In this document: piece after piece, positions 34,602 through 57,490 of the stretch
How positions within the stretch are numbered: the stretch's first letter is position 1
Layout of the letters: each line of letters starts with the position of its first letter
Assembly: GCA_025345505.1 (NCBI GenBank)
Contig: JANVCC010000125.1
Coordinates: 5,117,388 to 5,181,387, forward strand
DNA from: Todiramphus chloris collaris
Lineage: Eukaryota > Chordata > Aves > Coraciiformes > Alcedinidae
Direction of reading: 5' to 3'
DNA length: 64,000 bases
Position numbers and translations under genes: made by a program
Notes under the pieces: model-generated
The model's database searches: none
The model's input: the letters and a program-made list of their open reading frames with translations, nothing else
What the model was told of the DNA's origin: nothing

Positions 34602-34704
34602 TCAGAATTCAAAGTCCTCATTGGTCATGTCGATCGCCCAGGCAAACTTCTCCCTCTGTGTCTTGTTGTAGATCTTCTCGATGGGCACACCAAACTTCTT
34701 GCAC
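34602..34704 (-). CDS. TOP1MT: TOP1MT core exon 13 (C-terminus)
   Basis: Acceptor cgtacag; one base completes Trp, then [20 protein letters not shown] and [13 protein letters not shown] before TGA. This segment packs around the catalytic tyrosine domain. The end EDFEF is the family terminus. Confidence 0.93.
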
Positions 34705-37700: not shown

Positions 37701-40700
37701 AGAAGCTTCTGTGCAACGTTGTCTTCAGCTGGAAATAAATGGAAACATCACTGTATCTCCTTTCTGGGAGCTAAGGAAGGCAGGGAACAGAGCAGAACAG
37801 CAGCAAGTTGCTTGCCTTTCCCATCCTTTCTCAAGGGAGAGCAATACAGACTGTGGAAATTGGTGAAGAACACTTGAGTATCACTGAATCTGATACTGTG
37901 GCTCATCATTCAGTTACCCAAGGTAGGAAGAGATAACGCAACCAACTAGCAATGCAAAGAAAGAGGGAAAAGAAATATTTCCATCTTGGCTATAAGTGAG
38001 TCAGACTGTCACCCAGAGAACAATTTGGGTTGGAAGAGACCTTGCAAGGTCATCTAGTTCAACTTTCCCACACTGAGCGGGGACATCTGCAACTAGAGCA
38101 GGTTACTCAGAGCCCCAGCCAACCTCACCTGGAATGATTCCAGGGATGGGGCTTCTGCCTCCTCTCTGGACAACCAGGTCTCACCACCTTCAGTGTAAAG
38201 AATCTCCTCCTTAGATCTAGTCTATATCTCCCCTCTTTTAGTTTAAAACCATCATCCATTGTCCTGTTGCAATAGGCCCTGCTAAAAAGTTCTTTCCACA
38301 TCTTTTTTTGTAGGTCCCTTTAAGCACTAAAAGGCCCCAAGAAAGTCTCCAGTCTCCCCAAAGCCTTCTCTTCTCCAGGCTGAACAATCCCAACTCTGAG
38401 CCTGTCCTCACAGCAGGGGTGCTCCAGCACCCTGACGATTTTTGAGGCCTCCTCTGGACCTGCTCCAACAGGTTCACATCCTTCTTGTGCTGAGTTCCCA
38501 ACCTGCTGCATATCCCCATAAGTTACATACCATAGTACAACGTGGTGCATCAGCTGCCAAGGAGAGGCAGGCAGTTCTAGGGACCCCAAGGCAATGGATG
38601 GGCATTTCTGAGCCCACTGACCATATAATGCAGCTGGTAATGCCACAAACACTGTTAGTAACTCACAGTTAGTGAGTGCCTTTAGCTGCTCCTGCAGGGT
38701 GATGGAGGCATTGTAGGTTCTGAACACTTTGGCACTCAAACCGTCCATCAGTTTCTGGAGGTGTTTGTTCAAGATGACAGTCTGGAGGAAGGAAAAATAG
38801 GACAAAGTGCAGGGGAAAGGAAGGAAGAGAATAAGCAGAAGCCAGGACAACAAAGCACTTGCTTTTCAGATCATCTTCTGCCTACGCAACCAAAGTAGGC
38901 ATTATAAAAATAATCTGTAACAGCTTGCAGAGCTACTTGTTGGGTCAGGCCCTTACCTACTATAAACGGGCCCAAATTCCACCTAAACTCACACAGCAGT
39001 TCTGTGGGAGGCAGCAATTTCCCCCTCATCTATGTTCAAGAGGACATCTCATATCCAAGTAGCACATCTGACATGTATCACATCTGGTAACCTCTGTTCT
39101 ATGAAGCACATGGGGCTGTGGTGGGACTAGAAACAGAAGATGCTAACAAGAGTCATCTGGGGTTTGGAAGAAGCCATAACTTGTACCAAGAAAGTCTATC
39201 ACATAAATCTTACATAACCAGGGAGAAGCAGCTTCTTTTGATGAAAAAGGGGCAAGTGGCTTTGGAGGGGATGGAGGAGCATGGATGGCAGCGCTTCATA
39301 TCGCACACTGGGGACGAGGGAGGCTTCTACAGGAGAATAGCTCAGGAAGGAAGGCTGCAGCACATCTCTCCCACTGTGCTCCAGCAGCCTCTCACACTTC
39401 TGCTGAGCCCCCAGTGAGATGCAAAAGCATCAACCAGATGAGGTTTGACACCTCCAGCAGTGACCTGGGCAACATGTTTGCAGGCAGGTCTTCTCAGGTT
39501 AAAAGAAAAAAGCTCAAGCAGATGAGTTGGAGAGGGGAAGGAGCAGAAAGGGACCTCATAAGCAAGGACACAGGTTACTCGTGGGTACAGACTGGCAGCC
39601 AAGCCTGCATTTGGGGAAGCAGAGATGTTACCAGTGCAAAAAAATGATGGAAAATAGTATCAGAGCATCTTAACAGGGTGTTCAAACAGTTACAGTGGTG
39701 TCAGTTAACAGTTAAAACCAGGGTGAGGGATGACAGATGGGAGGACCGCAGCCTCAGAGCCTGCAGGCTGGACAAAGGTGTTGTGGATTTCCTTCTACTC
39801 CCCCTAGGCCATCAGTGGTGTTTCCAAAGCTTATGGGTCACAACTCACATTGAGCCTGTCAAAGAGGTCATCCCCTGGGTCCTTGTTCTTCATGAACAGC
39901 TGCAGGTTCTTGAACACCTAAAGAGAAGGAAAAAATGGCCCTACTCAGAGACAAGAAGCAAATTCCTCCCAGACATCTCCTTCATTTCCATGTGTCTCCT
40001 CATCCAGACAGACTCAGATTCAGACTAATGTCTTACATCAAGGGACTGGAGAATAGATCATATGAGGACCGTGAAGGAGTTGGGTCTGTTTAGTTTGAGG
40101 AAGAGGAGGCTGAGGGGAGACCTCATCACTCTCTACAACTACCTGAAAGGGCATTGTAGAGAGGCTGGTGCTGATCTCTTCTCTCAGGTAATTAGTGACA
40201 GAACCAGAAGGAATGGCCTAAAGCTGAAACAAGGTAGGTTTAGACTGGACACTAGGAAAAAATTCTTCATGGAAAGAGTGGCAAGATGTTGGAATAGGCT
40301 GCCCAGGGAGGTGGTTGAGTCATCATCCCTTGATGTGTTTAAACATCACTTAGATGTGGTGTTGGAGGATATGGTCTAGGGGTGAACTTGTAGAGTAGGG
40401 CTAATGGTTGCACACGATGATCCCAAGGGTCTTTTCCAACCTAAATGATTCTGTGATCCTACCACATCACCAACCTCCTCAACTTCAAGGGCTGCCACTG
40501 GGATCTCAAAGCCACTAGTGCCACAAACTGTTTGTCCCCCATCTCTGCTATCCCTGGCACCCCAGTTTTCCCCACAAACACCCTTAAAATCATCCATCCT
40601 GTGGTCAAAGCAAAAAATAAAATAAAGAAATAAAATGGAGAGATCAAAATCCTAATGCCCACTAGTCAACTGAGGATGCTCTAACAGGACACAGGACTTG

Positions 40701-43700
40701 CCTCTCAAGGTTCACAGGCTAAAACAACCTTAAAACTCACCAGCTTCTCCACTGACACCTTGTTGTAGTAACGGATTGAGTCTTTCCCAAGGAAGTCAAA
40801 CTCCACCACATGCTCCTGCCCATCCAGCTTGGGGTGCAGTTTGATGTGCTCCACGCGCAGGGAGCAGCAGCCAACTGTGTCTGCAGTCTCCCCTTCCTCC
40901 TTCTCATTGCCAGCTCGCAGGGCCAGCTGAAAGAAGACAGCAAGTCATCCATCCCAGCCCACCTCAATTACCCTTCTTAGGGTTATTAAAGTGGATGCGG
41001 ACACCAGGGAAGGAGAACAAAAAAAACAACAAAAGGAGATCTCTGGACAATACCTCACTGAATGGCTGCTAGGACCTTGCTGGAAACCAATCAGTAACTT
41101 CTCCAGCAGGAGATTATTTCATAGCTCTAAGAAATCCTAGAATACCAACCCCCCTCCCCCATAATAAAGTTATCCAGCTCTCCAGTGGGACCTTAACCAT
41201 CACTTGGAGATGCACATTCTGGTAGAGTCCAGGAAGAAGAGTACAGCCCCTGCAGTGCCACACAACTCACAAGCATCAGCAGATAGGAGTCACCCTCCAT
41301 CACAATCACTGTCAGATTCCTCACGTGAGGCAACCTGAGCTGGTATAACCAGACACCAAACGAAACAAAGTGCAAAGCGGAGAGGATCAGGTAAACTAAA
41401 TCCCAACTTCCACAAAGATGGGGGACCTAGGGGCCAGACTGAGGCTGCAGATACCTTATCAATGAAGTAGAGGGCCACTGCTATTTGCCGCTTTCTCATC
41501 TCCTTGGACTTCCAATCAGCTCTGTAGCCAGCACGGATTTTGTGGACAACACCCTTTAAGCGCCGGGCTAGCTCATACTTCTGCCAGTCTTTCTCCCCCT
41601 GGAAAGAGAAGCCAAGACTCAGTGTCCCATCTTCTTTTCACCCTTACCAATCACACCCTGTTCTGCGAACAGATCCAGCATCTAAATACTGCTCAAACCC
41701 CATTTTTATCTTGAGGAGAAACCATAAAGGGGAAAAAAAAAAATCAGAGCAGAAACAGCTCCCCTAAGGTTTTTGTGCCCTCTGCTGGCTGTAGGATCCT
41801 GGACAAGTCTGAGCTGCTCGTAGTCTGGAGGTATTCTCCACCAGCCAGCAAATGAGGAACCAAGCACTGCATGGCCACAGCCACCACCACTTAGACACCA
41901 TCATGGAATGAATGACACAGTGCACTTGTTCAGCTGTGCCCAACTTGCCAACAGTTTCCTTATTTGCTTTGAGGACTGGAAATAGTTTTTAATCACCTTT
42001 TGCTCCTCAGTGTTCACTCCCTCCCATGGTGCTGCAGATGGTGATCCCACCTCCCACTACTCTGTTTACTGGCGTAAATGAATTCAACCTCATACACTCT
42101 GGACCCAGTGGACCTCCTCAGACCCTGCCTGGCTTTCAACAGCCTTCCCTGGACACAGGAACAGCACAGGGATGGCTCTTCCAGGAGGAACCCATCCTCT
42201 GGAACAGACTTGATGCTTAACAATCATCTTTCCCCCTTGCCACCCAGTGGCATGCTAGCTAATTTAGTTTAACCCATCATTTTGGGGAAGGGAAAAGTAC
42301 ATTTTGTTGATGTGTCACATCTCTGCTTTCCCCTGTTCTTTCCACCTGACAAAAAGCCAGTGGCCCAACATGCACCAGCTCTGCCTGAACAGCAGCATCA
42401 TTCCAACCTTCAGCTTGGAGCTGGGGTTCAGCATGATGTACTTCAAAGAGTTCTGGATGTTTTCTGTCCATGAAGCCAGCCAGGTAACTGTGTTGTCGAA
42501 GCGCACCTCCTTCCACTTGTGCCCTTCTGGTGGCTCGGGGATCTTGGAGTCCCTGCAGGCAGAGCAAGGTTACAGCCCTCAGACCATGAAGAAAAAACAG
42601 GTCTGTCAGCTCAACTGCTTCTTCACAGTAAGCCAAAAGGTGGTCCACACACTGCAGCATTACGTGCAGAAAACATACAGCCCACCCAAAATTGCTCCAC
42701 AATATAGAATCACCAAATGGTTTGGGTTGGAGGGGATCTTTCAAGGTTACCGAGTCCAGCCCCCCTGTAATGAGCAGGGACATCTGCAACTAGGTGAGGT
42801 TTTTATTCTTTGGATGCTGGGGACAATAGGACAACTTGCTGGGACCAAGTGGGGAGTGTTTTGAATCTAAGACACAAGGTGTTCATATGGGTGGCTAAGA
42901 CAAACCCAACTCATATAACCTAGAGGGCAGTCTTAACTCAGTCACTGCTTTTCCTCCCTCCACTGAGCATCCTGATCCTTCCCAGTCAGCATTAGGGACC
43001 CATAAAACGAGGAGAAACGGCCTGTTTGGAAGAGGAGCACAGGAGGAAGAGTAGAGTTGTTCCTTCTTCAGGGAGGCCATGGGAGCACTGTAGCATTTGC
43101 AGTTAATGCTGGGTGAACAGTGCAGGCACCAGGGAGAGATGGGAGCTGCTGACTATCTTCACTGGCTATGTAACATGCACAGAAGAACTAAAAGTCAGAC
43201 CTAACTGGAAAGCAGACATCTGAAGGTGACCAGAAGATGACAGAAAGGCTCCAACAAATTCAAGCCTGAGGGTGTGCAAAGCAAGGATTGTAGGAGATAA
43301 CAAAACCTCCACAGGAACTCGAGGCAGAGATGTGCTGTTCCTCCCAGTTCAACCTCAGCTCTTCCCAAGGTGACTCACTTGCTGCAGTTGATGACAACAT
43401 CTTCTGGCATAATCCTCTTCTTCAGCATGCCCATTTTGGGGTGGTTACCACGTCCACGAAACAGCCCTGGTGGCTCAGTTTTGAAGTTGCCTATCTTCTC
43501 CCGGTGCCCATCAAGGATGCAGTACCCGTACTCCTCCTGGATCTTATCTGCCTCCGCCTTCAGTTTCTGAAACAAGCACCACGCCACCATGATCCCACAG
43601 GATGAAACCAAAACCCCATGACTTGTGCCTGCCCATCACTACCCTCCTTTCCCTGGAGAAAGCAAGGCTAGATAGATGGATCTCCAAAGGTTGCAGGAAG

Positions 43701-46700
43701 ACATGAGCATGGGTCCAAGTCCACTCCCAACAAATGGCAAACCCTTATGGTGATGCTGTCCATACATGAGATGCCTGACAGAGCAAAACCTGTGTGTCAC
43801 CAGCCCCTTAGTAAGGTCCACCAACTTCTGGACAGGGCAGGACTCCAAATCATGATCTAAGGATGACTGGTCCCCTGCAAAGCCATGAAACATGCAGCCT
43901 CTGCAGATGAACTTCATGGAGAGGGATGTGATGGTCATGGAGAGATGAAGCTTGTCCAAAAACCAAAAAGGGGACAGATCAGGGTGTAACACCAGGGAAG
44001 AAGAGAAGCAGGAGGTGAAATACCCTAGGCTGGTCACAAAATATATCAACTATCCCCACATGTCACAGGAAACAGTCCTCACCTGCTTCTCCTCTTTGGA
44101 GAGTGCTTTCCGTGCTTCATTTTTGTCCACAAAGTATTTGTGGATCTCCCTGAAGTCGCACTTGTCCAGGTCTTGGATTATGTCCTGCTCCACTGAGGTC
44201 ATCTCCTGAGCAAGAGATAAGAGGGGCTGGGTAAATCCAGGAGGCAAAAGCAAGTCCACACAGAGCTGCTGCCTCTACCTGCTCCTCACAGAGAAGAAAA
44301 GGAGAGACCTATATGACAGTTCTTCAGAAAAATTAGAAGGAAGCAGTCACCCCAGCTATGTTAGCCACATTGAATCATAGCATCATTTTGGTCGGAAAAG
44401 ATCTTTAGGATCAAATCTAACAGAACACAGCACTGCCAGATCATCACTAAATAAATCATCTCCCTCAGCACCACATCTCCACAGCTTTGAAACCCCTCCA
44501 GGGATGGGGACTCCACCACTGCCCTGGGCAGCCTGGGACAGGCCTTAAACTTTTTGGTGAGGAAATTCTTCCTTATATCCAAACCACGCCTCCCCTGGGG
44601 CAATTTCAGGCAAGTTCCCTTTCATCTCATTGCTTGTTTCTTGAAAACAAAAACCAACTCTACTTGGCTCTAACCTCGTGTCAGGGATTGTCAACAGGGA
44701 GGTGGTCTCCCCTGAGCCTCCTTTTCTCCAGGCTCAACAACCCAGGTCTCTCATCTGCTCCTCACCAGACATGTTCTCTAGACCCTCCCCCAGCTTCATT
44801 GCCCTTCTCTGGACACGCTCCAGCCCCTCAATGTCCTTCTGTAAGTGAGGGGGCCAAAACTGAACCCAGGATTTGAGGTATGCCCTCACGAGTGCCCAAG
44901 GACAAACAAACCTGCTGTAACAGGAGGCCAGGCTGCCTCTAGAGACCTGAGTTTGCAACCACGAAGAAGCAAGATGGAGACAACTCTGGGCTGGAATAAT
45001 CAAAACCCTCATCCCCTTCATCCCTTTGACTAGATTGAAGAAATTTTTGATGCTGAGGGTGGTGAGACCCCGGCCCAAGTTGCCCAGAGAGGTGGTCAAT
45101 GCCCCATCCCTGGAACCATTCCAGGTGAGGTTGGCCAGGGCTCTGAGCAACCTGCTCTAGATGCAGGGGCGTTGGACTAGATGATCTTGAAAGTTTCCTT
45201 CCAAGCCAAACCAGATGATTCTACAATCCCACACGGTAGCCTAGGGCCTACCTGTGGATAACAGGTTTAATGCTGAGTTTGATGTGGAGGACAGGCAGCA
45301 AGGAAGCCCTCACAGGGAAGATACCTTCCTCCAGTCATTGAAGAAGTTGTTCTGGAAGATCTCCTTGGTTGTGTATTCGTGATCAAGCATTTTGGCATAG
45401 AAAGTGGCAATTTCCTCTGTGGCCAAGCTCAGCTTCAGGGGTTTGCCTAGGAAGAGAGAGGACCTTTAGCATCAGTTATGGGGACAGCACAACCCCACAG
45501 CCCCAGGCAGTTGTTTGTTGAGCCCCTGTGCTCACCACGGTGCCCAACCAGGAACATGGGGTGAGGACACACTTGGACAGATTCCAGCATCCCCTGTGTG
45601 CCAGGCACAGCCTCACCCTGCCCCTCAACACAGAGGGATGCTGGGCACAGCCCATCTGCAATCACACACTCCATTTTCTTCTCCAGGAGAGTTGAAATCC
45701 TATTGTATGTTAAGGTCACTGAGCCACAGGGCTTTCAGCAGTCACCATGATGTGATGAGTCCCAAACTTCTGGCTCCACAGGACAATGTGGAAAGGCTTG
45801 TTTTCCCCACCACCCTGACTTCAAGGACCATTCTCAATAGCCAGGTTCCCACTCAGAGGTTTCATCTTAAATACTTTCCCACGTGGGTGGAGCAGTCACA
45901 GGAAAAGCCAGAGACTGCTACAGATACAGGAGCCTCTCATGGATGTCCAGGGGATCTTTGCTGCTTTCAGAAAATGATCTAAGGCAACATCCTCTTCTGA
46001 GCTTTTTGGATAGAGCAATGAAGCCTAGCGAATCCAAGGAACATCTTATCTCTTTCTAGGAAACCAATACCTTGAAATGGGTTTTCTAGGCAAGCTGCAG
46101 AAAAAGCACCCTGCAGATCTTCAAGGGAATGATTCAATCCTATCTGCACTAGACACTGAGTTTTGGGGTTCCTGACCAAAAAAGTGAGTTATAGTCACAG
46201 CCTTATAGCGGCTCCATGACAGCCTGCATACATCAGCTCAGTCATGGCCCCTTCCTCCATGGGTTGTTGCCTGTCCACAAACTTTTTTACCCAGGAATGG
46301 TGACACTTTAGCAAGCAAGCCAACATCACCCAAGATCCCAGGACAAAGCCACCAGCCTAGATGCACGTAACACAGATGGGTCTCCAACAGCTCAGAGGCC
46401 ACAGAAAGTCCAAACCCTGTGCAGGACTACACACAACTGTCAGGTCTGCTCCTCAGAGACAAAAAACCACCATCTCTGACACAGCCCAATCGATGTCCCA
46501 GCAGTGCCCTCTGGTGACAGCGTTGCCAGGCACCTTATTTCTTAATTGGCCTTTCCCCCCCACCCCTGCTGTAAAACCCCACAAGGAATAGCAAGTCCCA
46601 GTGGGAGGGCTGAGGACCACAAAGACCCCATGGGACTGTGGTCCTCTCCCGTTGCCAGCATCCCTTGGTCAAGCCCCAAGATGCTCATTGCCTCCTACTC

Positions 46701-49700
46701 CTGATACATCAGAAAACAGTTCAAGGATGAAGCTGAGAGCAGGGAGGAAAAAAAAAGCCCAACAGACAAGGTGGGAAACCAAGAGGGACAGCAGAGACCT
46801 GGATTGTCCTGCCAATCTCTCAGCCCCTTCAGTGATGCACTGAGTTGATGTAAGATGACATGTGGTGGCCCTGGGGACAGTGTCTAGAGTAATGACCAGG
46901 AGTTAGGAAAATCCCAGAAAAACTCAGCATCACCTTGGAGGACAAGTGATGTGTCAGTCACTGAGGCCATGGGACAGGCCAACTACAGCTCAAAAGCAAA
47001 GGTCACATTTTCCTGGCTTGCAGGGAAACCATGCATGAGTTGACTTAAGTTTGTGGTCTGCAGTAGGTCCCCCTTCCCTACAAAAGAAGATCTGGCTCTT
47101 CAGCCAGGCAGGGAACAACCTCCACATGTCCCATCATAAAGCAGACATACCATCATAATAAAAGTGCACATCATCAGGCAGCGGCTCATAGAGGGGGGCA
47201 AAGTAGGGTCCTCGGTGCTCCAGCTGGGTCCACTTCACCCCATCTTCTTTCTTCTCCTCCTCCCACCTGGAAGAGATGCACAGGAACCCATGAGAACACC
47301 TCAAAACCCTGGGGTATGTGACCACCTCCCAAGGTCACCCTGGGAAGAAGCCCTGTGAGCAGTGATGGTTACCACAAAACCCAGGTGAAATCCTATTGTC
47401 TCTGGTACTGCCTCAGTTTCCCCCTGATTTCAAAGACCACCACAAAGCAAGCCAGGGAAAAGCATCCTGAAGAAGTGGACACACTCAGTGCAGCAACGTG
47501 GAGGGACACATCAAGAGAGTAAAAGGGATGGATCAGCCAAACTTCTGTGCACTCAGACCCTGCTGCTGAGCCACAAAGGTGTCTCAGTTTGCACAGAAAG
47601 GTCTGCAAACCCAAAAATGAACCCTTCCTCCCCAGCCCTCCCTGCCTTTTTTAAATAAAGCACTCAAAGAGGTTCAGAGGTTCATGTGCACATCCCAGAG
47701 ATGAACAACACACAAGACTCATGAGTACTGATGCAACAGGACAAGGGGTAATAGTTTTAAACTCAAAGGAGGGGAGATTTAAACTAGAAAGAAGGAATAC
47801 ACATTTTTACAGTGAGGGTGGTGAGACCCTGGCCCAGGTTGCCCAGAGAGGTGGTAAAGCCCTGTTCCTGGAACCATTCCAGGTCAGGTTGTCCAGGGCT
47901 CTGAGCAACCTGCTCTAGTTGCAGATGGCCCTGCTCAGATGAACTAGATGACCTTTAAAGTTCCCTTCCAACCCAAACCATTCTGTGATTCTATAATTTG
48001 ATGATTCTACTTACACCTATGATCTTAATGCAAACGAGATCTTAATGCACCTCTCCCCCTTTCCAGAGCAAACAGGATTTTTAAAGCTGCTACAAGCCAT
48101 AGCTGTGAAAATTTGTAAATACTTTCAAAGTAAAAATAAATAAATAAAATAATAGTCAAAACACCCACCCTGAAGATCAGAACAGCATTAAAAGAGACAA
48201 GCCAGGTGAAGGGCAGAGGAAGAAGTCGGCTGGCTGACAGCAGTGCATGGGACAGGCAGATCTGCACCCTGCAGCTCAGCCAGGCTGGCACTGGCCCCTT
48301 AATCCCAACATCCCCAGTATAAAAGAACAGAAAAAAAATCCAAAAAAAAAAGCACATCAAAAAGAAAAATCTCCACCAAAAAACCCCACAAAACAAGCAA
48401 ACAAAAAAAACCCCAAAATACACAAAAAAGCCCACAAAACCCCAAACAAACCCAACACAAACAACCCACACCAAAAGAACCCCAAACAAACAAAAAAACC
48501 ACACACACAAAAAACCAACCCCCCCCACGAACCAAACGAAAAATACACAAACAAAAAAACCCAAACCAATCAACAAAAAAAAAAAAAGGGGGGGGGGGGG
48601 GGAGACACACACAATCAACCCACAAAAAAGTACCAAACCAAAACCCAAGGACTGCTGGGCAAACAGCACGATTTCACGCCAGGGGAAATTAAAATATATA
48701 TATATATATATATAAAAAAAAAAGAAGAACAAGAGTGTTTCTTGCTCAGCAGTGCCCCGGAAACATTTCCAACCCTTCTCCTTCCTGCACGATGCAGCGT
48801 GGAGAAGAAATCAAATCGCACCAAAAAGTGCATTGCGCCAGGAAAACATAGGGGAAAAAAATCATATATATAATATATATATAAGATATTGGAATAAAAT
48901 TATATATTATATATAAGATATCGGAATAAAATTATATATTATATATAAGATATTGGAATAAAAATCAAGCAGCTAGAGAAAATTCAGCTGGAAGCACCTC
49001 AGAGCCAGGCGGCAGCAAGGACGATTTGCGGGATGCTGCAAGGGCTTCACCCCCGGAAAGCCCCGCGATCCCCCCCATCCCCGCACAGCTCCACCCGCAC
49101 TCACCTTCCGCAGCTCCCCGAGCCCAGCCGGAGGCAAACTGGGGTGAACTGGGGGTGCCGGACCCTGCGGCCAAGCAGGGAGGTGGTGAGGTGTCGGTAC
49201 ATGGCCGGAGAGCCAGCGAGGCTGGTGGGATGTGCAGGCTGACCCCGAGCATCCTTGCCCCGGCACTGCGCTACCCAGCGAGGCACGCTGGCAGCCGTGC
49301 CATCAGAAGCCACCCGTGCCCCCAACGCTGCCCAGGCTTGGGGCACTGCCCACGTGCCCAGGCTGTGAAGCATTATGGGAAATGTAGTCCCGCAAGGCTT
49401 TTTTTGGGGGGGGGAGAAAAACTGGAAATCGAGCTATGTACCAACATCTCGCCTCCGTGCCAGCCTCCCCACGACAAAGCAAAGCGTTAATTAGCAAAAA
49501 AAAAAATCATCTACTTATTCCCACTTTTTACATCACCCTGTGCCCCAGCAGAGCTGTCCAGTCACCCCTGGGCAACGCTGTCTGTGCTAACGCCTTAGCA
49601 GCTTCCCACAGTCCAGGTTTGCAGCAAGCTCCAAAGCATCCAGCTCCCCCCCGCCAAATGCTCCTTCTCTGCCCCCGATGTTGGGGTGCTCTGGGTGGGA

Positions 49701-52700
49701 GAGTGACACCAAGTGGCTAAAGCTACGGCTCCCTGTCACCTCGGAAAAAAAAATATATATATATATAAAAAAAGTTACAGCATCCATCAGTCCCACTCAT
49801 CCATCCTTTCCCAAGACTCTCCTGCCAAGAAGCTTGGCTGGAGCAACCAAAAAAAATGCTGCAAAAGGATGGAAAACACACATACAAAAAAAAAAAAGAA
49901 AGAAAACCCACAACGACCACCAAAAAAAACACGCAAAAAAAATCCAACACAACCAACGCACCCCACAGAAAACAACAAGGAACCAAAAACCCATTCCCCC
50001 CAGTCACACACAAAAAAAACACACCACACACACACACCCCCCAAGAAAAAAAAACCCTCACATAACCAAACAAAAGCCCTCCAAATACACACATACACAC
50101 ACAAACAACCCCACAAAACACACAAAATAAACCAGATCAACACAAACTTTTATATCCCCTACAACTCCCGGTGTCTTTAAAGCAGTTTTATTGAAGGGAG
50201 CTGTGCACATCGTCTCCTTCCACCACCCAGGACCATCTCCCTTCACTGGCTGGGCACCATCAAAGCCAGTTCAGGAGGAATTTATATTGCATATACATTA
50301 AAAAATTGATTGAATTTATTAAAATTAAATTTAATAAATGAATATTAAAATATTTTGGTATATTCAGAACCCTCTGCTGTCTCATCTGCCTCCTGCCCAG
50401 TTCAAGGCTTAAGAAAATGCATCACAGCAGGGGAAAAAAAATATAGTATCAAAAGAATTTTCACAGATAAAACGCTAATAAATAAAGCTAAGCCCCCAAT
50501 TGTATTAGTGCTAGGCCCACCCACAGGCCAAAGCCACACAGGACACTCACCACTTCCACTTGTTTTCTGTCTCTTCTTTCTTTGCATCCTTTTTCTCCTC
50601 CTTTTTCACTTTTTTGTTGGTCTTTTCCTCTCCTTCTTCCTTGGATTTCCTTTTACGGGTTTTTTGTGGGGTCTTGTCTTCACTATTCTTCTTATCTTCT
50701 GCTTCCTCCTTTGGCTTTTTCTTCTTGATTTTCTTCTTTTTCTCTTTCCCTGTCACATCTCCCTTCCCTGTCTCCGCCTCCTTCACCTCCTGCCCACTCT
50801 CTGCAGCCTGGATCTGTCCCCATCCTTCACCCCCTTTCTCATCCACCTCCTCTTTCTCCTCCTTTACTCCTTTTCCAGCATCACTTTCCTTTCCCATCCC
50901 ATCTCTCTTCTCCAGTTCATTTCCCACTCCTTTCTTTCCTCCCTCCTCCCCAGTCTTCTCCAGCTCTTGTTCCTTTTCCAATATTTTTCCCTTCTTTATT
51001 TTCTTCCTCCTCATCTTCTCCACTTTCTCTGTTTTCACTTTCTGCTTCTTTGCTTTCCCCTTCCTCTTCTCTGATTTTCCTTTCTCCTGCTTTTCCCTCC
51101 TGTCACCCCATCCCCAGGTGTTGCTGCTGCTCTCTCGCTTGGCTCTACTCCATCCCCTTGCTTCATTCCTGTCCCCATCAGTATCCTCCTCTTCCTTGAT
51201 GCTCTCCATCACCTTCCCAGGATTTCCAAACTCATCTTTCTTCCCTCGTTTTCTCTGCAATGTCTTTCCTTCCTGCTTCCTTTGCTCTTGTTTCTTCCCT
51301 CTTTTTTTCTTTTTTGACTCTTGAGCATCCCCTTGCTGCTGTAGGGCAGGGGGCTCCAGCTCCTTCTCCTCACCCTCCCTCACAGGGGTGAGCTCCACAT
51401 CCATCTCCAAAGCTCCAGGTTCTCTAGAGAAGGAGGTAGCCCCACCATCGCTTGGTTTTGAGACCTGTTGGAAACAGGCAGAAGGTAAGAAAAGTTTAAG
51501 TTGGGAAAGGAGAGCACGTGTCCCAAAGCTCAGGTGCATGAAGAAGGTGCCCTGGCATATGGCCCATAAAGGATTGGGTCAATAGGGTTGGGGGGGGAGA
51601 GCAGGTAACACCTCCCCATGGGCTCCTACCCCAATGCCAGCTTCTGTCACAGAGTGCCACTGTCCTGCTGCAAGTCCTGCTCTCTGGAGTTTGTACTGTG
51701 ACCTACAAAAGAAAAAAAGCAAAACCACTTCTCACTGCAGCAGCCTCCACCTCTTAAATGCAAAACTAGCATATTGCTCCCAAAGAAGTCCTTGTCTTCC
51801 TTCAAGCATGGCTTGGCCTGTGGAGACATCCCAAAGTAGCAGTGAGCAGCTCCTACAGAAACAGGATGATCCCAGGATGCAGCTTATGAAAGCAGGAAGC
51901 TCGAATGAGCAGGACCATAAGGTCTCCAGACCAAATAAAAGTGTCCCAAAGGAAGTGTCCCCAGAGACACCTGTGGGGTGAGAAATGCTCAGGTTTGCAA
52001 GGTTTGGCAGCACCAACAAAAAGCAGGACAGAAATGGTATCAGGCTGATCATCATGAACACAGTGGAGGACATCCTGTCATGGGACAGGTCTCCTGGGAC
52101 TGTGGGGATGGGTCCCTCACTCCCCTTCCAAAAAGGCACCCTACCATTGGTACAACAGAGGAGGACATAGACTCATCAATACAAGAAACTGCAGGACATG
52201 GAGTGACTCCACCACTGCCCTGGGCAGCCTGGGACAGGCCTTGATCAACCTTCATGGGAAAGAAATTGTTCCTCATGTTCAACCTAAACCTCCTCTGGCA
52301 CAACTTGGGGCTGTTTCCATTTGTACTATTGCTTGTTCCTTGGGAGAAGAGACCAAGCCCCACCTAGAGCTCCAACCTCCCGTCATGGAGTTGTCAACAG
52401 TGAGGTGGTCACCCCTCCTTTTCTCCAGGTTCAACTGCCACAGTTCCCTCAGCTGCTCCTCACCAGACTTGTGCTCTAGACCCTTCTCTAGCTTCATTGT
52501 CTTTCTCTGGACACACTCCAGCCCCTCAATGTCCTTCTTGGAGTGAAGGTCCCAAAACTGAACTGAGGATTCAAGGTGTGGCCTCACCAGGGCCAAAAAC
52601 AGGGGGACAATACCTGCCCTAGTCCTTCTGGCAACACTAGTGCTAATACAAGCCAGGATGCTGGTGGCCTTCTTGTCCACCTGGGCACACACCAGCTCAT

Positions 52701-55700
52701 TTTCATCCCACTGTTGACCAACCCTCCCTCCCCCTGGTCCTTTCTCTGAGTAGCTTCCAGCTACTTGTCCCCAAGCCTGGAGCATTTAATGGGATTTTTG
52801 TGGCCCAAGGGCAAAAGTCAGCACATGATCTTTTGAGACTACAGCTCCATACAGTTGACATGATGTTTTCTCCTTGCCCACAGGGAAACTTGGAGCTGTC
52901 CCTGCTGGGTCATTGCCACCTTCTATAGAGATGCCCACCAGTCTGCAGAGCATCACATCCCCAGCGTGCATTCAGTACCACCACAGATACCCAACTTACC
53001 CAGGCCAGGAGGTGAACAGCAACCAGAGCCCCACTGCTCCAGACCATCTTAGGCAACCTTGGAGCTGAGCTCAAGCCCTTGCACCAGATGATGGTTCAGA
53101 CCCATTGCCTGTCTTTCCCCACTCCTGTCCCCCCCACCATGCATAATCAGTTGCTCTGATATTACCCAGAAAGAACCAGGGAAGCCAGGTTTCACCATCC
53201 AGAGAGGGTGATGATGTGTCTCCTGTGTATCCAGGTGAACACCAAGAGACATGATTTATGCTTTCAGATGAAAAAAACCCCACAGACATGGTTTCCACAA
53301 GGGAAGAGGAGATTTTTTTGGTCCATTTCTAAAAGTTCATCTGGATTGATTTACCAGGGTGTGGGACATGAGGGCTCAGGAAAGTCTTTGAGTCTCTTTG
53401 GGATAGAAACAGCAAGTTCCAACCCCTCCCCCCCAAAAAAAACACAACCCCAAAATACAAAAACCAGGAGCAAGATGCTTTTTTCAGACAGCCAGAGCAC
53501 ATGTTACACAATCTCCACTAAACTCATTAGGGCAAACAGCCTGGCAAAACACGCTCAGCCCTTCCAATCTCATTAGCAGCCGAGAAACAGCAGATTCATG
53601 ACTCAGAAGGCAAAGTCTCGATGCCTTTTGGGATCAGCTCCTTCTCCAGAAGGTCTTATTAGAGGCCTCACTGGACATAAAAGCCCCTGCCTCGAAGTTG
53701 CGGAGAGGATTAGCCTGCTAAGGGACAGCTTTATGAATTCAGCTTTCCTATCTCTGCCCAGATCTAGCGTAGGGCGAGAGAAAGAAACACCCTTTTCCCA
53801 GGCTTTGTGAGGCTGGTTGTCCCTACCAATATTCCCCCACCGCCTACCTCCACATTTATGTAGGTATGTGCATCCGAGCCATCGCGCCTTGCTGACTCGA
53901 GCATCCTTGGGGAAGCTGGATGGAGCCAGGAGCCTCCCTCTCCACCCTCAAATCCCAGGATGTGGCCTCAAATTCCACTGGTGGTGTTTCTGGCAAACTT
54001 TGAGGTCACTGAAAGCACCAGGACACAGCCAAGCTGGCTAGGGAAAGCATCAGGAGTAGGGTGGGCTCAGTGATATTGGGGGGGGGGAACCAGGGCTGTG
54101 CAACCCCATGGCAAGAAGAAAGAGAACAGATTTCCAGTTCTCTGGGCAAAAAGCACCCAGAAAGTAGCCTGACTTACCTTGAAGAGTCTTTCAACCCCAC
54201 AGATGGCCCTTGGTGGAGGGTCAACTTGGTTTCCTCCTGAAAGGCATTAACAGTGTTGGTCTGGGAGACGTTAGCTGGCATGGGTAACCCAACAGCAGCA
54301 GCATCCCCAAGCAATAACCCAGCCCCTGCAATTGCAGGCAGACAGGATACAGTACCCATGTCCTCCTGACATCACCTTGCCCTTCCTCAACCGCCTTGGC
54401 TAGAAAACAGGAGTGCCAAACAGCAGGTTTTTTCCAACCACGAGGAGAGCTTTGAGGTTTTATGGGGTTAGGAAATCCCTGTCTTACTTCCAACAACACT
54501 GAAAAGGTATTTTAGAGAACAAATGCATAAAAACTATCACTCCTCCTGACCCATCATGCTCATTAGATATGTTGCTGCTATTGGGGACACTAGTTCAGAA
54601 CAGAAGGGATAGGTGGGCTCCAAAACAAAGATGTGTCACATGACTGCTTATGTGCATTCACACCAGCTTGATCTTCAGAAGCTTTAATGACCCCTGTAGC
54701 AGATGGCAAGGAGTAAAGAGGTGTGAAGTAAAGCCACAGGGTGGGAAATACAAGGGTGAACAGAGGGCAAGGAAGAGAAAGGCAGGGAGAAAAAAAAAAA
54801 GCAAAGGATAAGGAAAATGGGGACAGGACCTTGAAGAAAAGAAGCTCAGAGGGGACACAGCCCTAAGAGCTGACCCACGGTGACAACCAGAAATATTCAC
54901 ACTGATTGCATACGCATTTTCAAAGCTGAAGACAGGTTCTTCTGCTTCAGGCTTTGAAAGGTCACATCCAACCACACAGCACCCCAAAACCCATCCCAGC
55001 TTCACTCAATGCTTGCCAAGCATCAAGGCTCTCGTTATGAATTCCAACTTCCCCTAGTTTCTATTTCGAAGGCTTTCAAGGGAGGCCAAAACCACACAGG
55101 GGTTTTTCTTGAAAGCTACTGCTGAGAAGGCTGAGAAGATGCTGGGTTAACTCATTAAAGGTGGAAAAAAACACTGAGTTAATTATGGGTTGGTTATGGC
55201 AATATAGACTTTGGTTCCCTGGGAATACGCCTGCTCCTGTATTCACAATCCTTCAGCTGCTGTCAGGAATGAGGTTGATGAACCCAACAATGATCTCCCA
55301 AAAAAATTCCTGGATGCAAACATCTGGTGCTTGCACCAGGAACACCAGGACACTGACCACAAGCACCTCTGGGGGGTTTCAAGGTTGGAGGTCTGATCAC
55401 TTCCATCCAGGAGAGCTTGCTGATGTTTCAGATGCTGTTTGCAAGAGGGATGGAAACTCATCACGGGGAAGGAAAAAAAAGAGATCTCTGCTGGTTTTGC
55501 ACACCAAAAGGACCAGTACAATATGGTAGGAAAGCAGAAATGCAAGGAGAAATCAGCCAGGATCTGTGTTCCCCAGCATCATCCCAGAGCAGCAGTGAAG
55601 TCCAAATGCCTACGGAATGTATGTTGTCAGGATGAGGCCAATCCCAGACTCATGCTTGGGAAGAGACAGAATCACTCATGAGAGCAGCCCTGCAGAGAAG

Positions 55701-57490
55701 GGCTTGGGGGTGAAAAGCTGGAGGTGAGTTGGCACCATGCTCTCACAGCCCAGCAGGCACTGGCACCCTGGGCTGCATCCCCAGCATCGTGGGCAGCAGG
55801 GAGAGGGGGGGATCCTGCCCCTCTGCTCCCAGGGCTCTGGGCAGAGAGAGAGACCCCCCTGCAGTGCTGGGGCCAGCTCGGGAGTGCTCAGCACAGCAGA
55901 GACAGGGACCTGGTGGAATGGGGCCAGAGGAGCCCCAGCAATGCTGGGAGGGCTGGAACCCCTCTGCTGGGAGGCCAGGCTGGGAGAGCTGGGGGTGTTC
56001 AGCCTGGAGAAGAGACAGCTCCAAGAAAGCCTTCTTGTGGCCTTTCAGGACTTGAAGGGCCCTGTCAGAAAGATGGGGAGAGACTTTTGAGCAGGCCCTG
56101 TTGTGACAGGACAAGGGGTGATGGTTTTAAAACTCAGAGGGAGATTTAGACTGGATACAAGGAAGAATTTTTTTTTTTACCCTGAGAGTGGTGAGACCCT
56201 GGCCCAGGGTGCCCATAGAAATGGCAGAAGCCCCATCCCTGGGACCATTCCAGGTGAAGTTGGACATGGCTCTGAGCAACCTGCTCAAGTCACAGATGTC
56301 CCTGCTCACTGCAAGGAAGTTGGGCTAGATGACTTTGAAAGGTCCTTCCCCACCCATAACATTCTATGATTCTATGCCCTGGTGCTCCCCATTACTGTCA
56401 GTTCATAACACCCAAATGTGACTGATTCAAGCCCAAAGCCACATGCATAATTTAACAGAGGATGCTCCAAGTATCCCTTTTAGGGGTCTGCACACAAGCA
56501 CAAGCTGTAGGACACCAACCTCACAACTCCCTTGATAGCAAACCCCACACTCTTCTTCAGTGCAGAGACCACCACTTACCAACCCAGATGCAGCTCCCTC
56601 CTCTGCTTGGATCCTATCCTGTAGGCTCGAGAGTAAATCCTTCCCTTCTGCAGACTCTTGCTTTAGGGAGCTTCTTGTACAGAAAGGAGACAGAGAAGGA
56701 ACACAATTTTTGCCTAATTAAAAGACTTTTTTGATAATCAAAGCAGCCCAAGAAGAGTGGATCTGGACACTACACCCCCATGCATGACTCTGGTGAGCCC
56801 AGATGGGGAACATCAGCATGGGTGGAACAAAGCCCCACTGATGCCAAGTCCTCCCCGGATGCCACCACCAAGAACGGTAACTCTGAGGAGTTACCTGCTG
56901 ATAATATTTTCCTGCAATGGCTTCTCCTTGACCTTGGATGATTTCTTCTTCCTTTCCACCACAGAGGCCTGTGCACCAGGACAGAGCAGTGTAAGAGAGG
57001 AGGCAGTTGATGGAGTGGGTTTGATGCCCACAGCACATTGGGGACAATCACAAGGGTCACTCCAATGCCCAGGCATTGAAGAGGTCTGGCTGGTACCTGT
57101 ACCTTGCATGGTGTTTCCTCTGGCTCCTTCTTCACAGCCTTTCTCTTCGCTGCTTTTAGCACCTCCTCTCCATTCCCTAACTCACTCTTTCTCTTTCTGA
57201 GGACAAGAGCAAACTCAGCCCACCAAGGCCAAGCAGGCAATGCCTGCAACAGACCCCTTTGATTTGGAAATAAGCCATGGCATGATGCCACACTAACCCT
57301 TACGTTGAGCAGCACCCAAAAGGAAATGTGGAGGAATTTCCCTGCTGACCAAGTTAGGGCTGAGATGCCCAATAGAACCACCTGCAGTAAGCGTAATAAC
57401 GTGATGCTGGAGACCCCCAAAATCCTCTGCTATGCCCCACAATACCAACCTGCTGCTGTTCTTTGCCCCCGGGGCCTTTGACACCCCCAT
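34602..57490 (-). CDS. TOP1MT: DNA topoisomerase IB, TOP1MT type, with mitochondrial and nuclear-type 5' ends (whole gene)
   Basis: Type IB topoisomerase that nicks one strand through a 3'-phosphotyrosine and relaxes supercoils. Thirteen core exons from 47266 to 34602 code 560 residues ([12 protein letters not shown] to NEDFEF*) and match the thirteen-exon pattern known for vertebrate TOP1 and TOP1MT. All catalytic residues are present: Arg in [10 protein letters not shown], Lys in [10 protein letters not shown], Arg in VFRTYNAS, His in LCNHQRS and Tyr in [12 protein letters not shown]1MT rather than TOP1 is favoured by [34 protein letters not shown] and by the LY6 neighbourhood. The first core exon can take either a mitochondrial presequence exon (product about 593 residues; human TOP1MT has 601) or a series of upstream lysine-rich exons (about 967 residues in my model). 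Six CR1 fragments and a seventh chimeric pair sit in introns. Confidence 0.92.
34958..35537 (+). mobile_element. CR1 LINE fragment, forward, in last intron
   Basis: Runs from 'tgtgaccagcaggttgtggg' through 'agaaaactgtgtccagttct' and 'ctgcccagagaagctgcaga' to the tail 'cattctgtgatcc'. It fills most of the intron between exons 12 and 13, antisense to the gene. Confidence 0.9.
35732..35881 (-). CDS. TOP1MT: TOP1MT core exon 12 (catalytic tyrosine)
   Basis: 150 bases with acceptor ccctcag and donor gtaagt. It codes [20 protein letters not shown], then [20 protein letters not shown] and [10 protein letters not shown]. The Tyr after SKLN is the nucleophile (Tyr723 in human TOP1). The first part is the end of the coiled-coil linker. 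Confidence 0.95.
36813..36907 (-). CDS. TOP1MT: TOP1MT core exon 11 (coiled-coil linker)
   Basis: 95 bases with acceptor ccttcacag and donor gtgagt. It codes [20 protein letters not shown] and [12 protein letters not shown], a charged coiled coil that forms the linker arm. The sequence is free to vary in this family, but the opening IDAKK is conserved. Confidence 0.93.
37601..37728 (-). CDS. TOP1MT: TOP1MT core exon 10 (catalytic histidine)
   Basis: 128 bases with acceptor atttccag and donor gtgaga. It codes [20 protein letters not shown] and [20 protein letters not shown]. The His in CNHQR corresponds to His632 of human TOP1. [17 protein letters not shown] is almost invariant in the family. 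Confidence 0.95.
38015..38518 (-). mobile_element. CR1 LINE fragment, reverse, in intron 9
   Basis: Antisense 3' end beginning 'acaatttgggttggaagaga', with 'catctagttcaactttccca', and reaching back to 'ctgctccaacaggttcacat'. It is in sense orientation relative to the topoisomerase transcript. Confidence 0.9.
38667..38781 (-). CDS. TOP1MT: TOP1MT core exon 9 (catalytic arginine)
   Basis: 115 bases with acceptor ttcctccag and donor gtgagt. It codes [20 protein letters not shown] and [18 protein letters not shown]. The Arg in VFRTYNAS corresponds to Arg590 of human TOP1. Confidence 0.95.
39849..39917 (-). CDS. TOP1MT: TOP1MT core exon 8
   Basis: 69 bases, phase 0 at both ends, acceptor ctctttag and donor gtgagt. 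It codes [20 protein letters not shown] and [11 protein letters not shown] is family-conserved. Confidence 0.94.
40042..40458 (+). mobile_element. CR1 LINE 3' end, forward, well preserved, in intron 7
   Basis: Contains 'gggagacctcatcactctct', 'acaactacctgaaagggcat', 'ggaataggctgcccagggag' and the tail 'ccaacctaaatgattctgtg'. It is the least damaged CR1 3' end in the window, so probably the youngest here. Confidence 0.95.
40741..40926 (-). CDS. TOP1MT: TOP1MT core exon 7 (catalytic arginine and lysine)
   Basis: 186 bases, phase 0 at both ends, acceptor ctttcag and donor gtgagt. It codes [40 protein letters not shown] and [20 protein letters not shown]. The Arg in LRAGNE and the Lys in LGKDS correspond to Arg488 and Lys532 of human TOP1. 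[16 protein letters not shown] is a family signature. Confidence 0.96.
41455..41598 (-). CDS. TOP1MT: TOP1MT core exon 6
   Basis: 144 bases, phase 0, acceptor ctttccag and donor gtatct. It codes [40 protein letters not shown] and [17 protein letters not shown] and VALYFIDK are conserved in type IB enzymes. Confidence 0.95.
42408..42552 (-). CDS. TOP1MT: TOP1MT core exon 5
   Basis: 145 bases with acceptor cctgcag and donor gttgga, which is weak but gives the right join. It codes [40 protein letters not shown] and [20 protein letters not shown] is nearer to TOP1MT than to TOP1. Confidence 0.94.
42700..42795 (-). mobile_element. CR1 LINE 3' tip, reverse, in intron 4
   Basis: Only the last hundred bases or so: 'atagaatcaccaaatggttt', 'gggttggaggggatctttca' and 'gagcagggacatctgcaact'. 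Confidence 0.88.
43379..43566 (-). CDS. TOP1MT: TOP1MT core exon 4
   Basis: 188 bases with acceptor ttgtttcag and donor gtgagt. It codes [40 protein letters not shown] and [35 protein letters not shown] is the most conserved block of the core domain. Confidence 0.96.
44083..44205 (-). CDS. TOP1MT: TOP1MT core exon 3
   Basis: 123 bases, phase 0, acceptor ttgctcag and donor gtgagg. It codes [20 protein letters not shown] and [34 protein letters not shown] resembles the human mitochondrial enzyme more than the nuclear one. Confidence 0.95.
44370..44935 (-). mobile_element. CR1 LINE fragment, reverse, in intron 2
   Basis: Antisense 3' end from 'ttgaatcatagcatcatttt' back through 'ctccaccactgccctgggca' and 'gcccttctctggacacgctc' to the 'atttgaggtatgccctcacg' block. 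Confidence 0.9.
44990..45230 (+). mobile_element. CR1 LINE 3' fragment, forward, in intron 2
   Basis: Contains 'gtggtgagaccccggcccaa', 'cagagaggtggtcaatgccc' and the tail 'ccagatgattctacaatccc'. It lies about 55 bases from the reverse copy at 44370-44935, forming a head-to-head inverted pair of different subfamilies. Confidence 0.88.
45325..45446 (-). CDS. TOP1MT: TOP1MT core exon 2
   Basis: 122 bases with acceptor ttcctag and donor gtatct. It codes [20 protein letters not shown] and [30 protein letters not shown] and NFFNDWRK are family-invariant. The usual RKNFF is QNNFF here. Confidence 0.95.
47151..47266 (-). CDS. TOP1MT: TOP1MT core exon 1 (shared by both 5' ends)
   Basis: 116 bases with acceptor catctcttccag and donor gtatgt. 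It opens with one base (G) that completes the codon of whichever upstream exon is used, then codes [20 protein letters not shown] and [18 protein letters not shown]. After the mitochondrial exon the join reads GR-WEEE; after the lysine-rich exon it reads KWKW-WEEE. Both match the known junctions of TOP1MT and TOP1 respectively. Confidence 0.95.
47722..47996 (+). mobile_element. CR1 LINE 3' fragment, forward
   Basis: From 'gcaacaggacaaggggtaat' through 'gtggtgagaccctggcccag' and 'ggaaccattccaggtcaggt' to 'accattctgtgattctataa'. It lies in the first intron of the mitochondrial form. Confidence 0.92.
48318..48650 (+). repeat. Tract made almost only of A and C, with a G-run and (TA)n close by
   Basis: More than 270 bases with very few G or T, irregular rather than tandem, followed by an A-run and about 14 G at 48588-48601. 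A (TA)n run lies at 48692-48714. On the topoisomerase transcript strand it is U/G-rich. The long overlapping frames across it are artefacts of composition (F, V, C, W and G codons). Confidence 0.85.
48692..48714 (+). repeat. (TA)n microsatellite followed by A-run
   Basis: About ten copies of ta, then aaaaaaaa. Confidence 0.9.
48862..48963 (+). repeat. AT-rich tandem repeat, about 32-base unit, three copies
   Basis: The unit contains 'atatataagatattggaata' plus 'aaaattatat'. Copies 1 and 3 carry 'gatattgg' and copy 2 'gatatcgg'. It lies about 140 bases inside the intron that follows the mitochondrial first exon. Confidence 0.85.
49105..49202 (-). CDS. TOP1MT: TOP1MT alternative first exon: mitochondrial presequence
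   Basis: ATG at 49202 in good context (G at -3) to donor gtgagt. It codes [20 protein letters not shown], then [12 protein letters not shown] plus two bases that make Arg with the first base of core exon 1. Arg/Leu/Ser-rich with no acidic residue and able to form an amphipathic helix, as expected of a matrix presequence. The junction [17 protein letters not shown] parallels human TOP1MT (GARWEKEKHEDGVKW). No acceptor is needed because a promoter motif lies just upstream. An in-frame ATG at 49373 would add 57 residues, but it lies inside the promoter motif. Confidence 0.85.
49351..49356. promoter_or_regulatory. CACGTG E-box near the mitochondrial start site
   Basis: Palindromic CACGTG 14 bases inside the ZNF143-like motif, in the region expected to hold the start site. 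USF/MYC-family binding is possible but inferred only. Confidence 0.4.
49370..49388 (-). promoter_or_regulatory. ZNF143/STAF-type promoter motif of the mitochondrial TOP1MT form
   Basis: Minus-strand ACTACATTTCCCATAATGC, very close to the ZNF143 (SBS) consensus ACTACAATTCCCAGAATGC, which is found just upstream of start sites in CpG-type housekeeping promoters. It lies 168 bases upstream of the presequence ATG. A CACGTG E-box follows at 49351-49356. Confidence 0.7.
49745..49772 (+). repeat. A-run plus (AT)n microsatellite
   Basis: An A-run, about nine AT units, then an A-run. The layout mirrors the (TA)n element at 48692. Confidence 0.88.
49846..50142 (+). repeat. Second tract made almost only of A and C
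   Basis: About 290 bases, nearly free of T and with few G, with patches of (CA)n and C-runs. Same strand and style as the tract at 48318-48650; the two flank the mitochondrial first exon and its promoter. Long overlapping frames here are not genes. Confidence 0.85.
50551..51464 (-). CDS. TOP1MT: TOP1MT nuclear-type lysine-rich exon (914 bases)
   Basis: Acceptor tgcctgtttccaacag and donor gtgagt enclose 304 codons plus two bases in one open frame, beginning [17 protein letters not shown]. It is dominated by K and E with several basic clusters ([39 protein letters not shown]) that look like nuclear/nucleolar signals. It ends [11 protein letters not shown] and joins core exon 1 to give [13 protein letters not shown], the same junction as nuclear TOP1 (KWKWWEEE). 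The sense strand is purine-rich throughout, so the C/T-rich opposite strand also shows long open frames, which are shadows. An internal ATG ([15 protein letters not shown]) could start a shorter form. Confidence 0.8.
51650..52190. other. Intron sequence, no exon seen
   Basis: Short frames only, without paired splice sites in a phase that fits the neighbouring exons. Confidence 0.4.
52195..52790 (-). mobile_element. CR1 LINE fragment, reverse
   Basis: Antisense from 'tgactccaccactgccctgg' through 'tttctctggacacactccag' and 'tcaaggtgtggcctcaccag' to about 'gtagcttccagctacttgtc'. It lies in an intron between lysine-rich exons. Confidence 0.88.
54178..54236 (-). CDS. TOP1MT: Tentative TOP1MT upstream exon (59 bases)
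   Basis: Strong donor gtaagt and acceptor tgcctttcag. Of the possible frames, the one that ends in phase 0 and so joins the 914-base exon correctly codes [19 protein letters not shown]. In the frame of the longest local open frame ([13 protein letters not shown]) the join would hit a stop. Not lysine-rich, so support is from splice sites and phase only. Confidence 0.4.
54914..54951 (-). CDS. TOP1MT: Tentative TOP1MT micro-exon (38 bases)
   Basis: Acceptor cctttcaaag and donor gtatgc, both moderate. It is the one piece I found that links the exon at 56895 (two bases left over) to the exon at 54178 (needs two). It codes [13 protein letters not shown]. Short and phase-inferred, so it could be wrong. 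Confidence 0.28.
55700..56377 (+). mobile_element. CR1 LINE fragment, forward
   Basis: Long copy from 'gcttgggggtgaaaagctgg' through 'gggtgttcagcctggagaag' and 'gacaaggggtgatggtttta' to the tail 'acattctatgattctatgcc'. Antisense to the topoisomerase gene, in an upstream intron. Confidence 0.92.
56895..56968 (-). CDS. TOP1MT: TOP1MT upstream lysine-rich exon (74 bases)
   Basis: Acceptor ctgtcctggtgcacag and donor gtaact. Phase 0 at the start, two bases over at the end. It codes [20 protein letters not shown] and NIIS. The basic, serine-containing composition and the phase match the exon upstream. Confidence 0.62.
57103..57196 (-). CDS. TOP1MT: TOP1MT upstream lysine-rich exon with NLS-like clusters (94 bases)
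   Basis: Acceptor ttgtcctcag and donor gtacag. One base completes Arg, then [20 protein letters not shown] and [11 protein letters not shown]. The basic clusters RKRK and [10 protein letters not shown] resemble a bipartite nuclear localisation signal. VKKEPE also resembles a sumoylation consensus (inference). Confidence 0.65.
57450..57490 (-). CDS. TOP1MT: TOP1MT probable first coding exon of the nuclear-type form
   Basis: ATG at 57490 in strong Kozak context (A at -3, G at +4) to donor gttggt. It codes [13 protein letters not shown] plus two bases that give Arg with the next exon. Phase fits, the donor is weak, and the exon is short. A 5' UTR exon may lie further upstream, for example near the motif at 58530. 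Confidence 0.5.

Follow-up and report, generated by a model that had tools for sequence, protein, structure and literature searches.

TOP1MT is described, in the accessible part of a review, as the sole mitochondrial topoisomerase that is exclusive to mitochondria, in mammals and likely in all vertebrates (PMC6514783), and human TOP1MT-eGFP is reported to be exclusively mitochondrial in the available text of a further study (PMC9638942). According to the available sections of a paper on chordate evolution, from which the word 'isoform' is absent, the N-terminal domain of human TOP1MT comprises residues 1–49 and the catalytic residues of human TOP1 are R488, K532, R590, H632 and Y723 (PMC10081982). 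The accessible text of all three sources describes only a mitochondrial form for human and mouse TOP1MT (PMC10081982, PMC6514783, PMC9638942). One topoisomerase gene, TOP3A, is known in the same texts to give both a nuclear and a mitochondrial enzyme by means of two N-termini (PMC9638942, PMC6514783). TOP3A is a type IA enzyme and uses two start codons in one transcript, whereas the TOP1MT gene analysed here has two sets of first exons.

The gene lies in a 64-kb stretch of DNA from Todiramphus chloris collaris (hereafter the window). It resembles human and mouse TOP1MT in its 13-exon core, its catalytic residues and its short presequence first exon, and differs from them in having seven extra upstream exons which extend the encoded protein to 1009 aa.

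Results

One TOP1MT gene with an intact catalytic core

Core exons 2–13 were located using a human TOP1 core query, after which their borders were refined and the exons joined. The topoisomerase IB core consists of 13 exons on the minus strand, from 47266 to 34602, and is intact:

47151..47266, minus strand, core exon 1, common to both forms; acceptor ctcttccag, donor gtatgt
45325..45446, minus strand, core exon 2
44083..44205, minus strand, core exon 3
43379..43566, minus strand, core exon 4
42408..42552, minus strand, core exon 5
41455..41598, minus strand, core exon 6
40741..40926, minus strand, core exon 7, with a catalytic Arg and the catalytic Lys
39849..39917, minus strand, core exon 8
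38667..38781, minus strand, core exon 9, with a catalytic Arg
37601..37728, minus strand, core exon 10, with the catalytic His
36813..36907, minus strand, core exon 11
35732..35881, minus strand, core exon 12, with the active-site Tyr
34602..34704, minus strand, core exon 13, with the stop codon

Residues 34–593 of the 593-aa frame match DNA topoisomerase I in the Protein Data Bank (E 2e-289). The matched entry, 1nh3, is taken to be human DNA topoisomerase I, and all five catalytic residues (R, K, R, H and Y, counted on the alignment to it) are kept. The Pfam domains Topoisom_I_N, Topoisom_I and Topo_C_assoc were each found in the core, with E values from 4e-33 to 4e-103. That two genes have been run together is ruled out by the presence of one topoisomerase IB core in the 64-kb window and by the identity of the cores in all four pairs of long and short database models compared (Pogoniulus, Notamacropus, Xenopus laevis and Ornithorhynchus).

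Stretches at 47810–47990 and 56090–56380, in introns of the gene, look by eye like what we take to be bird CR1-type repeats. Elsewhere in the window, 17651–18100 is a CpG-island-like stretch (o/e up to 0.87).

A short form with a mitochondrial-type first exon

The core can be entered in frame from two different 5′ ends. The shorter is a single exon in CpG-rich surroundings:

49105..49202, minus strand, alternative first exon encoding a mitochondrial presequence of 33 residues; 98 bases from the ATG, donor gtgagt
48901..49550, no strand, CpG-rich DNA around the short-form start; three overlapping runs with o/e up to 0.69, the window median being 0.12
49377..49388, minus strand, ZNF143/THAP11-like site ACTACATTTCCC; the sole strict match in the window to what we take to be that motif

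The exon ends with two bases which are completed by the single G that opens core exon 1, so that the junction reads ...GSCGR-WEEE and a 593-aa TOP1MT is encoded. No strong acceptor is visible by eye before the ATG, where there is a weak CAG about 22 bases upstream; given this and the CpG-rich setting, 49105..49202 reads as a first exon. Annotated bird orthologs, a kingfisher included, have presequences of the MYRxLxxSLLG type, that of kingfisher protein P0002 being near-identical to the window's, and the short forms P0033 and P0037 lie on contigs of 2219 and 2432 bases. The presequence is of mitochondrial type and import is predicted.

A long form with seven upstream exons

The second 5′ end begins more than 8 kb further upstream and was aligned to the long isoforms of other birds:

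57450..57490, minus strand, long-form exon 1, 13 residues; ATG in good context (ACCATGG); aligned to bird long isoforms
57103..57196, minus strand, long-form exon 2, basic cluster RKRKS...; aligned likewise
56895..56968, minus strand, long-form exon 3, where a conserved motif begins; aligned likewise
56580..56670, minus strand, long-form exon 4, where the motif ends; tandem acceptor aagaag; aligned likewise
54178..54236, minus strand, long-form exon 5; aligned likewise
51630..51702, minus strand, long-form exon 6; aligned likewise
50551..51464, minus strand, long-form exon 7, lysine/glutamate-rich, 914 bases; acceptor tttccaacag, donor gtgagt

Together these exons (57490–50551) encode a 449-residue tail in 1346 coding bases that run without a stop or frame shift. 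The lysine-rich exon also ends with two bases, and its junction to the core reads ...ENKWKW-WEEE. The complete long form has 1009 aa, 20 exons and one terminal stop; its introns are all GT-AG and their phases all match. From sequence alone, the structure of a gene could hardly be better established. An earlier, sequence-only reading of this DNA had placed the single-base opening of core exon 1, the presequence exon with its GR-WEEE junction and the lysine-rich exon with its KWKW-WEEE junction, had given both first-exon types a two-base end and a gtgagt donor, and had called both frames correct. Each of these points is borne out, the 593- and 1009-aa frames being intact, and the observation is confirmed as correct while understating what the locus holds.

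The lysine-rich exon has no stops in its own frame, compared with 9 and 15 in the other two frames of the same strand. Its codon positions differ in base composition (chi-square p = 3.6e-10) and none of 2000 single-base shuffles was stop-free. A chance open frame is ruled out by the shuffles and the codon bias, along with the intact 1009-aa frame.

The donors of the exons at 57450, 57103 and 51630 are weak by a rough matrix. At 56671–56676 the tandem aagaag acceptor of exon 4 is matched by database forms that vary by the corresponding residue (ISSS or ISRSS), for example alligator P0072 and P0073. Around the long-form start (57.3–57.8 kb) there is no CpG island (o/e 0.27), and an acceptor-like ttcattccag lies 52 bases upstream of the ATG exon, so the transcript start is probably farther out. 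Between 57490 and 57545 a short out-of-frame ATGTTGCCTTAA follows ttcattccag, a possible upstream reading frame if transcribed.

A strong CpG island (o/e 1.05) lies farther upstream, at 61251–62100, next to an assembly gap (N at 61270–61369). It contains what we take to be a CRE, an X-box-like motif and two ATTGG motifs. We regard this island as a candidate long-form promoter, possibly shared with a plus-strand neighbour; it may instead belong to the neighbouring gene, to which a strong plus-strand donor at 62309 points.

Nuclear TOP1 is a separate gene

When the genome of this bird was scanned for the topoisomerase I domain, at least eight exon matches appeared, four on the contig that holds the window (C88) and four on another, C102. 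The C102 gene is nuclear TOP1. The part of it analysed covers residues 20–742 of a 771-residue gecko TOP1, in pieces, and ends before the last exon. TOP1 resembles the long form of TOP1MT in having a long charged N-terminal tail divided among several exons, and its last tail exon meets its first core exon at KWKW-WEEE in the same position and phase as in the window's gene. The tails themselves differ, that of TOP1 being of the HKHKDKHKDREH type and that of TOP1MT of the RKRK and KPLQEN type.

A tree was built from 64 cores, namely those of 63 of 190 retrieved proteins (Trichinella among them) and the window. It places the window inside tetrapod TOP1MT (100/98) and TOP1, shark TOP1 included, in a separate clade (100/98). 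A third clade holds nine long proteins from eight sharks and rays (100/100) and joins TOP1MT at 68/45; with joining support at that level, sharks probably, not certainly, have a long form of TOP1MT. That the window's gene is nuclear TOP1 is ruled out, TOP1 occupying another locus and another clade. The sequence-only reading had wondered whether the locus preserves a condition that precedes the division of the two roles. Because the genome has a separate nuclear TOP1, that description is unfit as worded.

About 20 kb beyond the window, at C88:5202001–5203204 on the plus strand, are three BRO1-domain matches. They probably mark RHPN1, the domain pointing to a rhophilin. The neighbourhood fits the human order, in which TOP1MT presumably adjoins RHPN1.

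A profile comparison of 17 TOP1MT proteins and the window with the last 62 residues of the tails of 19 TOP1 proteins gave a probability of 3% over six shared columns, with none of 60 column shuffles scoring as high. The putative common descent of the two tails rests on the shared splice position.

The long front end occurs in gene models across tetrapods

Among the best 120 of 7013 matches in a protein search with the core, bird TOP1MT proteins are 78–97% identical to the window's, the closest being those of the kingfishers Chloroceryle (97%) and Ceyx (96%). A second protein search was confined to proteins of at least 769 aa, of which it gave the best 120. Front ends among the matches listed are of two kinds: short, with the presequence described above, and long, in proteins of 967–1021 aa. 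Long bird forms among the matches listed come from a barbet, a woodpecker, goose, duck, turkey, quail, two songbirds and a parrot. The other long models listed are from turtles (up to 1253 aa), alligator (1145), lizards, Xenopus (1110–1124), the newt Lissotriton (1379) and a newt-like source (P0092, 1399), platypus, echidna and marsupials, and, among placentals, donkey, rhinoceros, pig, anteater and colugo. A KWKW-type junction is present in 127 of the 190 retrieved proteins, TOP1 and TOP1MT together. The sequence-only reading had proposed looking for the lysine-rich exon in other birds, crocodiles, turtles and fish, and long models were indeed found in nine other birds, turtles and alligator, as well as a long second gene in sharks and rays that is probably an ortholog. 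Most long forms in the databases are automatic predictions. As judged from gene models, the long TOP1MT front end is no bird peculiarity, being seen across tetrapods and probably in sharks.

When nine selected bird proteins were aligned with the window, the tail was 53–62% identical over 411–433 aligned residues and the core 88–92%. All ten rows share the motifs KPLQEN, ISSSL and KWKWWEEE without change. Three of the nine bird models (P0052, P0057 and P0067) have a different ending at the last core exon.

The window's tail is basic (pI 9.6, 26% Lys+Arg) and by eye low in order; tails from turtles and alligator, at pI 6.1–6.9, are acidic or close to neutral. In an alignment of 38 selected long proteins and the window, an RKRK-like cluster with another basic cluster after it can be seen by eye from sharks to placentals, with exceptions in turkey and quail (RKQK), Pogona and rhinoceros. 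The strict bipartite-NLS pattern occurs within the first 130 residues of 25 of the 39 long forms, the window's not among them, a raw count in sequence this rich in lysine. KPLQEN is found in all 16 sauropsid rows of this alignment, and the two monotremes have it as KPIQEN; among the four marsupials the motif is variable, and each of the five placental rows has it changed or lacks it. The upstream tail appears to be of nuclear type, with nuclear-signal-like basic clusters, and a nuclear or nucleolar location would be expected.

A search with the colugo tail at E below 1e-6 recovered only colugo, donkey, rhinoceros and pig (4 of 8000 scored candidates), with no match in primates. This search misses some relatives, as the anteater long form is absent from its matches. 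The absence of a primate match fits the human protein with its N-terminal domain of residues 1–49, as given in the available part of PMC10081982.

Several individual models deserve mention. Alligator P0072 and P0073 are isoforms that include the KPLQEN part and omit the lysine-rich exon, ending ..SRG-RWEEE. In P0048, from Calypte anna, the junction model reads EEEEKWKWQVGNTGG-WEEEKK, where the extra stretch could reflect a wrongly placed border or the retention of a piece. P0001, a 1441-aa protein of the beetle Abscondita terminalis, scores like two topoisomerase IB cores, a possible tandem fusion or gene-model error.

Contigs that point to spliced long RNA

Two retrieved proteins bear indirectly on transcription. 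P0092 has its 1399 codons uninterrupted on one 7582-base contig, and its nearest relative is the newt Lissotriton (86%). P0093 carries the lysine-core junction on 2151 bases, its nearest relatives being lizards (84–87%). Contigs of this kind should be spliced RNA, because the exons of the window's gene, long form included, are spread over 22.9 kb; their source, 'lgn', we infer to be assemblies of sequencing reads. The intronless newt-like P0092 would imply a spliced long RNA, and expression in birds may be presumed.

Discussion

We consider it probable that one TOP1MT gene gives two enzymes that share a catalytic body and differ in their front ends, the choice between these being made by alternative promoters. 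Transcripts with the 33-residue presequence would start from a promoter at about 49.2–49.4 kb and yield a mitochondrial enzyme. A second, putative promoter upstream of 57.5 kb would bring in the seven exons and their lysine/glutamate-rich tail, giving a nuclear-type topoisomerase IB. The sequence-only reading had proposed both enzymes from one locus by alternative promoters; two in-frame 5′ ends, one mitochondrial- and one nuclear-type, are now established, and the long-form promoter keeps its putative standing. After the TOP1/TOP1MT duplication, the TOP1MT copy would have kept its nuclear-type front end, and the mitochondrial first exon would have been gained inside the intron before core exon 1, not swapped for the nuclear-type one. 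It is likely that the locus yields a nuclear enzyme. The roles are already divided in this bird, so the long form would add a nuclear-type product to that of TOP1, and two genes (TOP1MT and TOP1) may provide three products.

Other explanations have to be weighed against this one. The long transcript might be real without its protein being a working nuclear enzyme; the product could stay in the cytosol, be unstable, or arise as a minor side effect of transcription from upstream. The tail does evolve fast, the search with the colugo tail found no primate relative, and KPLQEN is missing or altered in the five placental rows. Against this, the frame is intact, the motif is kept from birds to monotremes, the long form has lysine-rich basic clusters and no presequence, and the catalytic core common to both forms is unchanged; we regard this explanation as unlikely. 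It is a good deal less probable again that in this bird the upstream exons survive as decaying relics of a nuclear front end inherited from an ancestor, with the mitochondrial form alone in use. The weak donors at 57450, 57103 and 51630 (by the rough matrix) would suit such decay, as would a tail that changes faster than the core, but relics would hardly retain 1346 coding bases free of stops and frame shifts, the strong codon-position bias of the lysine-rich exon or full-length counterparts in the models of nine other birds.

The idea that the lysine-rich exon is a low-complexity open frame, misread as an exon by the sequence-only reader and by annotation pipelines, draws on the lowering of stop frequency in a purine-rich strand and on the many long models that are pipeline predictions. 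It is largely refuted, and we give it very little credence: the shuffles and the stops in the other two same-strand frames speak against it, as do the exact TOP1 splice junction, the conserved non-repetitive motif in exons 3–4 and the intronless long frame of the newt-like contig.

The preferred reading, of one gene and two enzymes, can be extended, more tentatively, to an enzyme known from biochemistry. Richard and Bogenhagen reportedly described, in 1989 and 1991, a 165-kDa topoisomerase I of Xenopus laevis oocytes that is oocyte-specific and larger than somatic topoisomerase I; we know of no assignment of this enzyme to a gene. The X. laevis long TOP1MT model is 127.8 kDa, compared with 97.4 kDa for TOP1, and as a hypothesis it would be a natural candidate. 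On the fullest version, jawed vertebrates would have had a third topoisomerase IB product all along, nuclear or nucleolar, made from an ancient second promoter of TOP1MT, probably germline-biased and identical with the Xenopus oocyte enzyme; the mitochondrial first exon would have been added in an intron, and the nuclear form later lost in primates. Taken as a whole this chain is possible but doubtful.

Among the matches listed in open-licence literature we found neither a nuclear or long TOP1MT form nor the 165-kDa Xenopus oocyte enzyme. As far as we have seen, the long forms sit in databases as predicted isoforms and are apparently undiscussed in that literature. A 2007 paper on alternative splicing of human TOP1mt, named in the reference list of the chordate evolution paper, could bear on the long form.

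The long form argues against TOP1MT as an exclusively mitochondrial enzyme and challenges the textbook view, under which the field reads TOP1MT knock-outs and evolutionary rates in terms of mitochondria alone. For the oocyte-specific Xenopus enzyme it supplies a gene that can be put to the test. If the two-enzyme reading is true for many tetrapods, an example of 'relocation after duplication' would turn into one of a promoter added, with later loss in some lineages. In that case knock-out phenotypes would have to be read afresh in species with the long form, and camptothecin would have a second nuclear enzyme among its targets in frogs, birds and reptiles.
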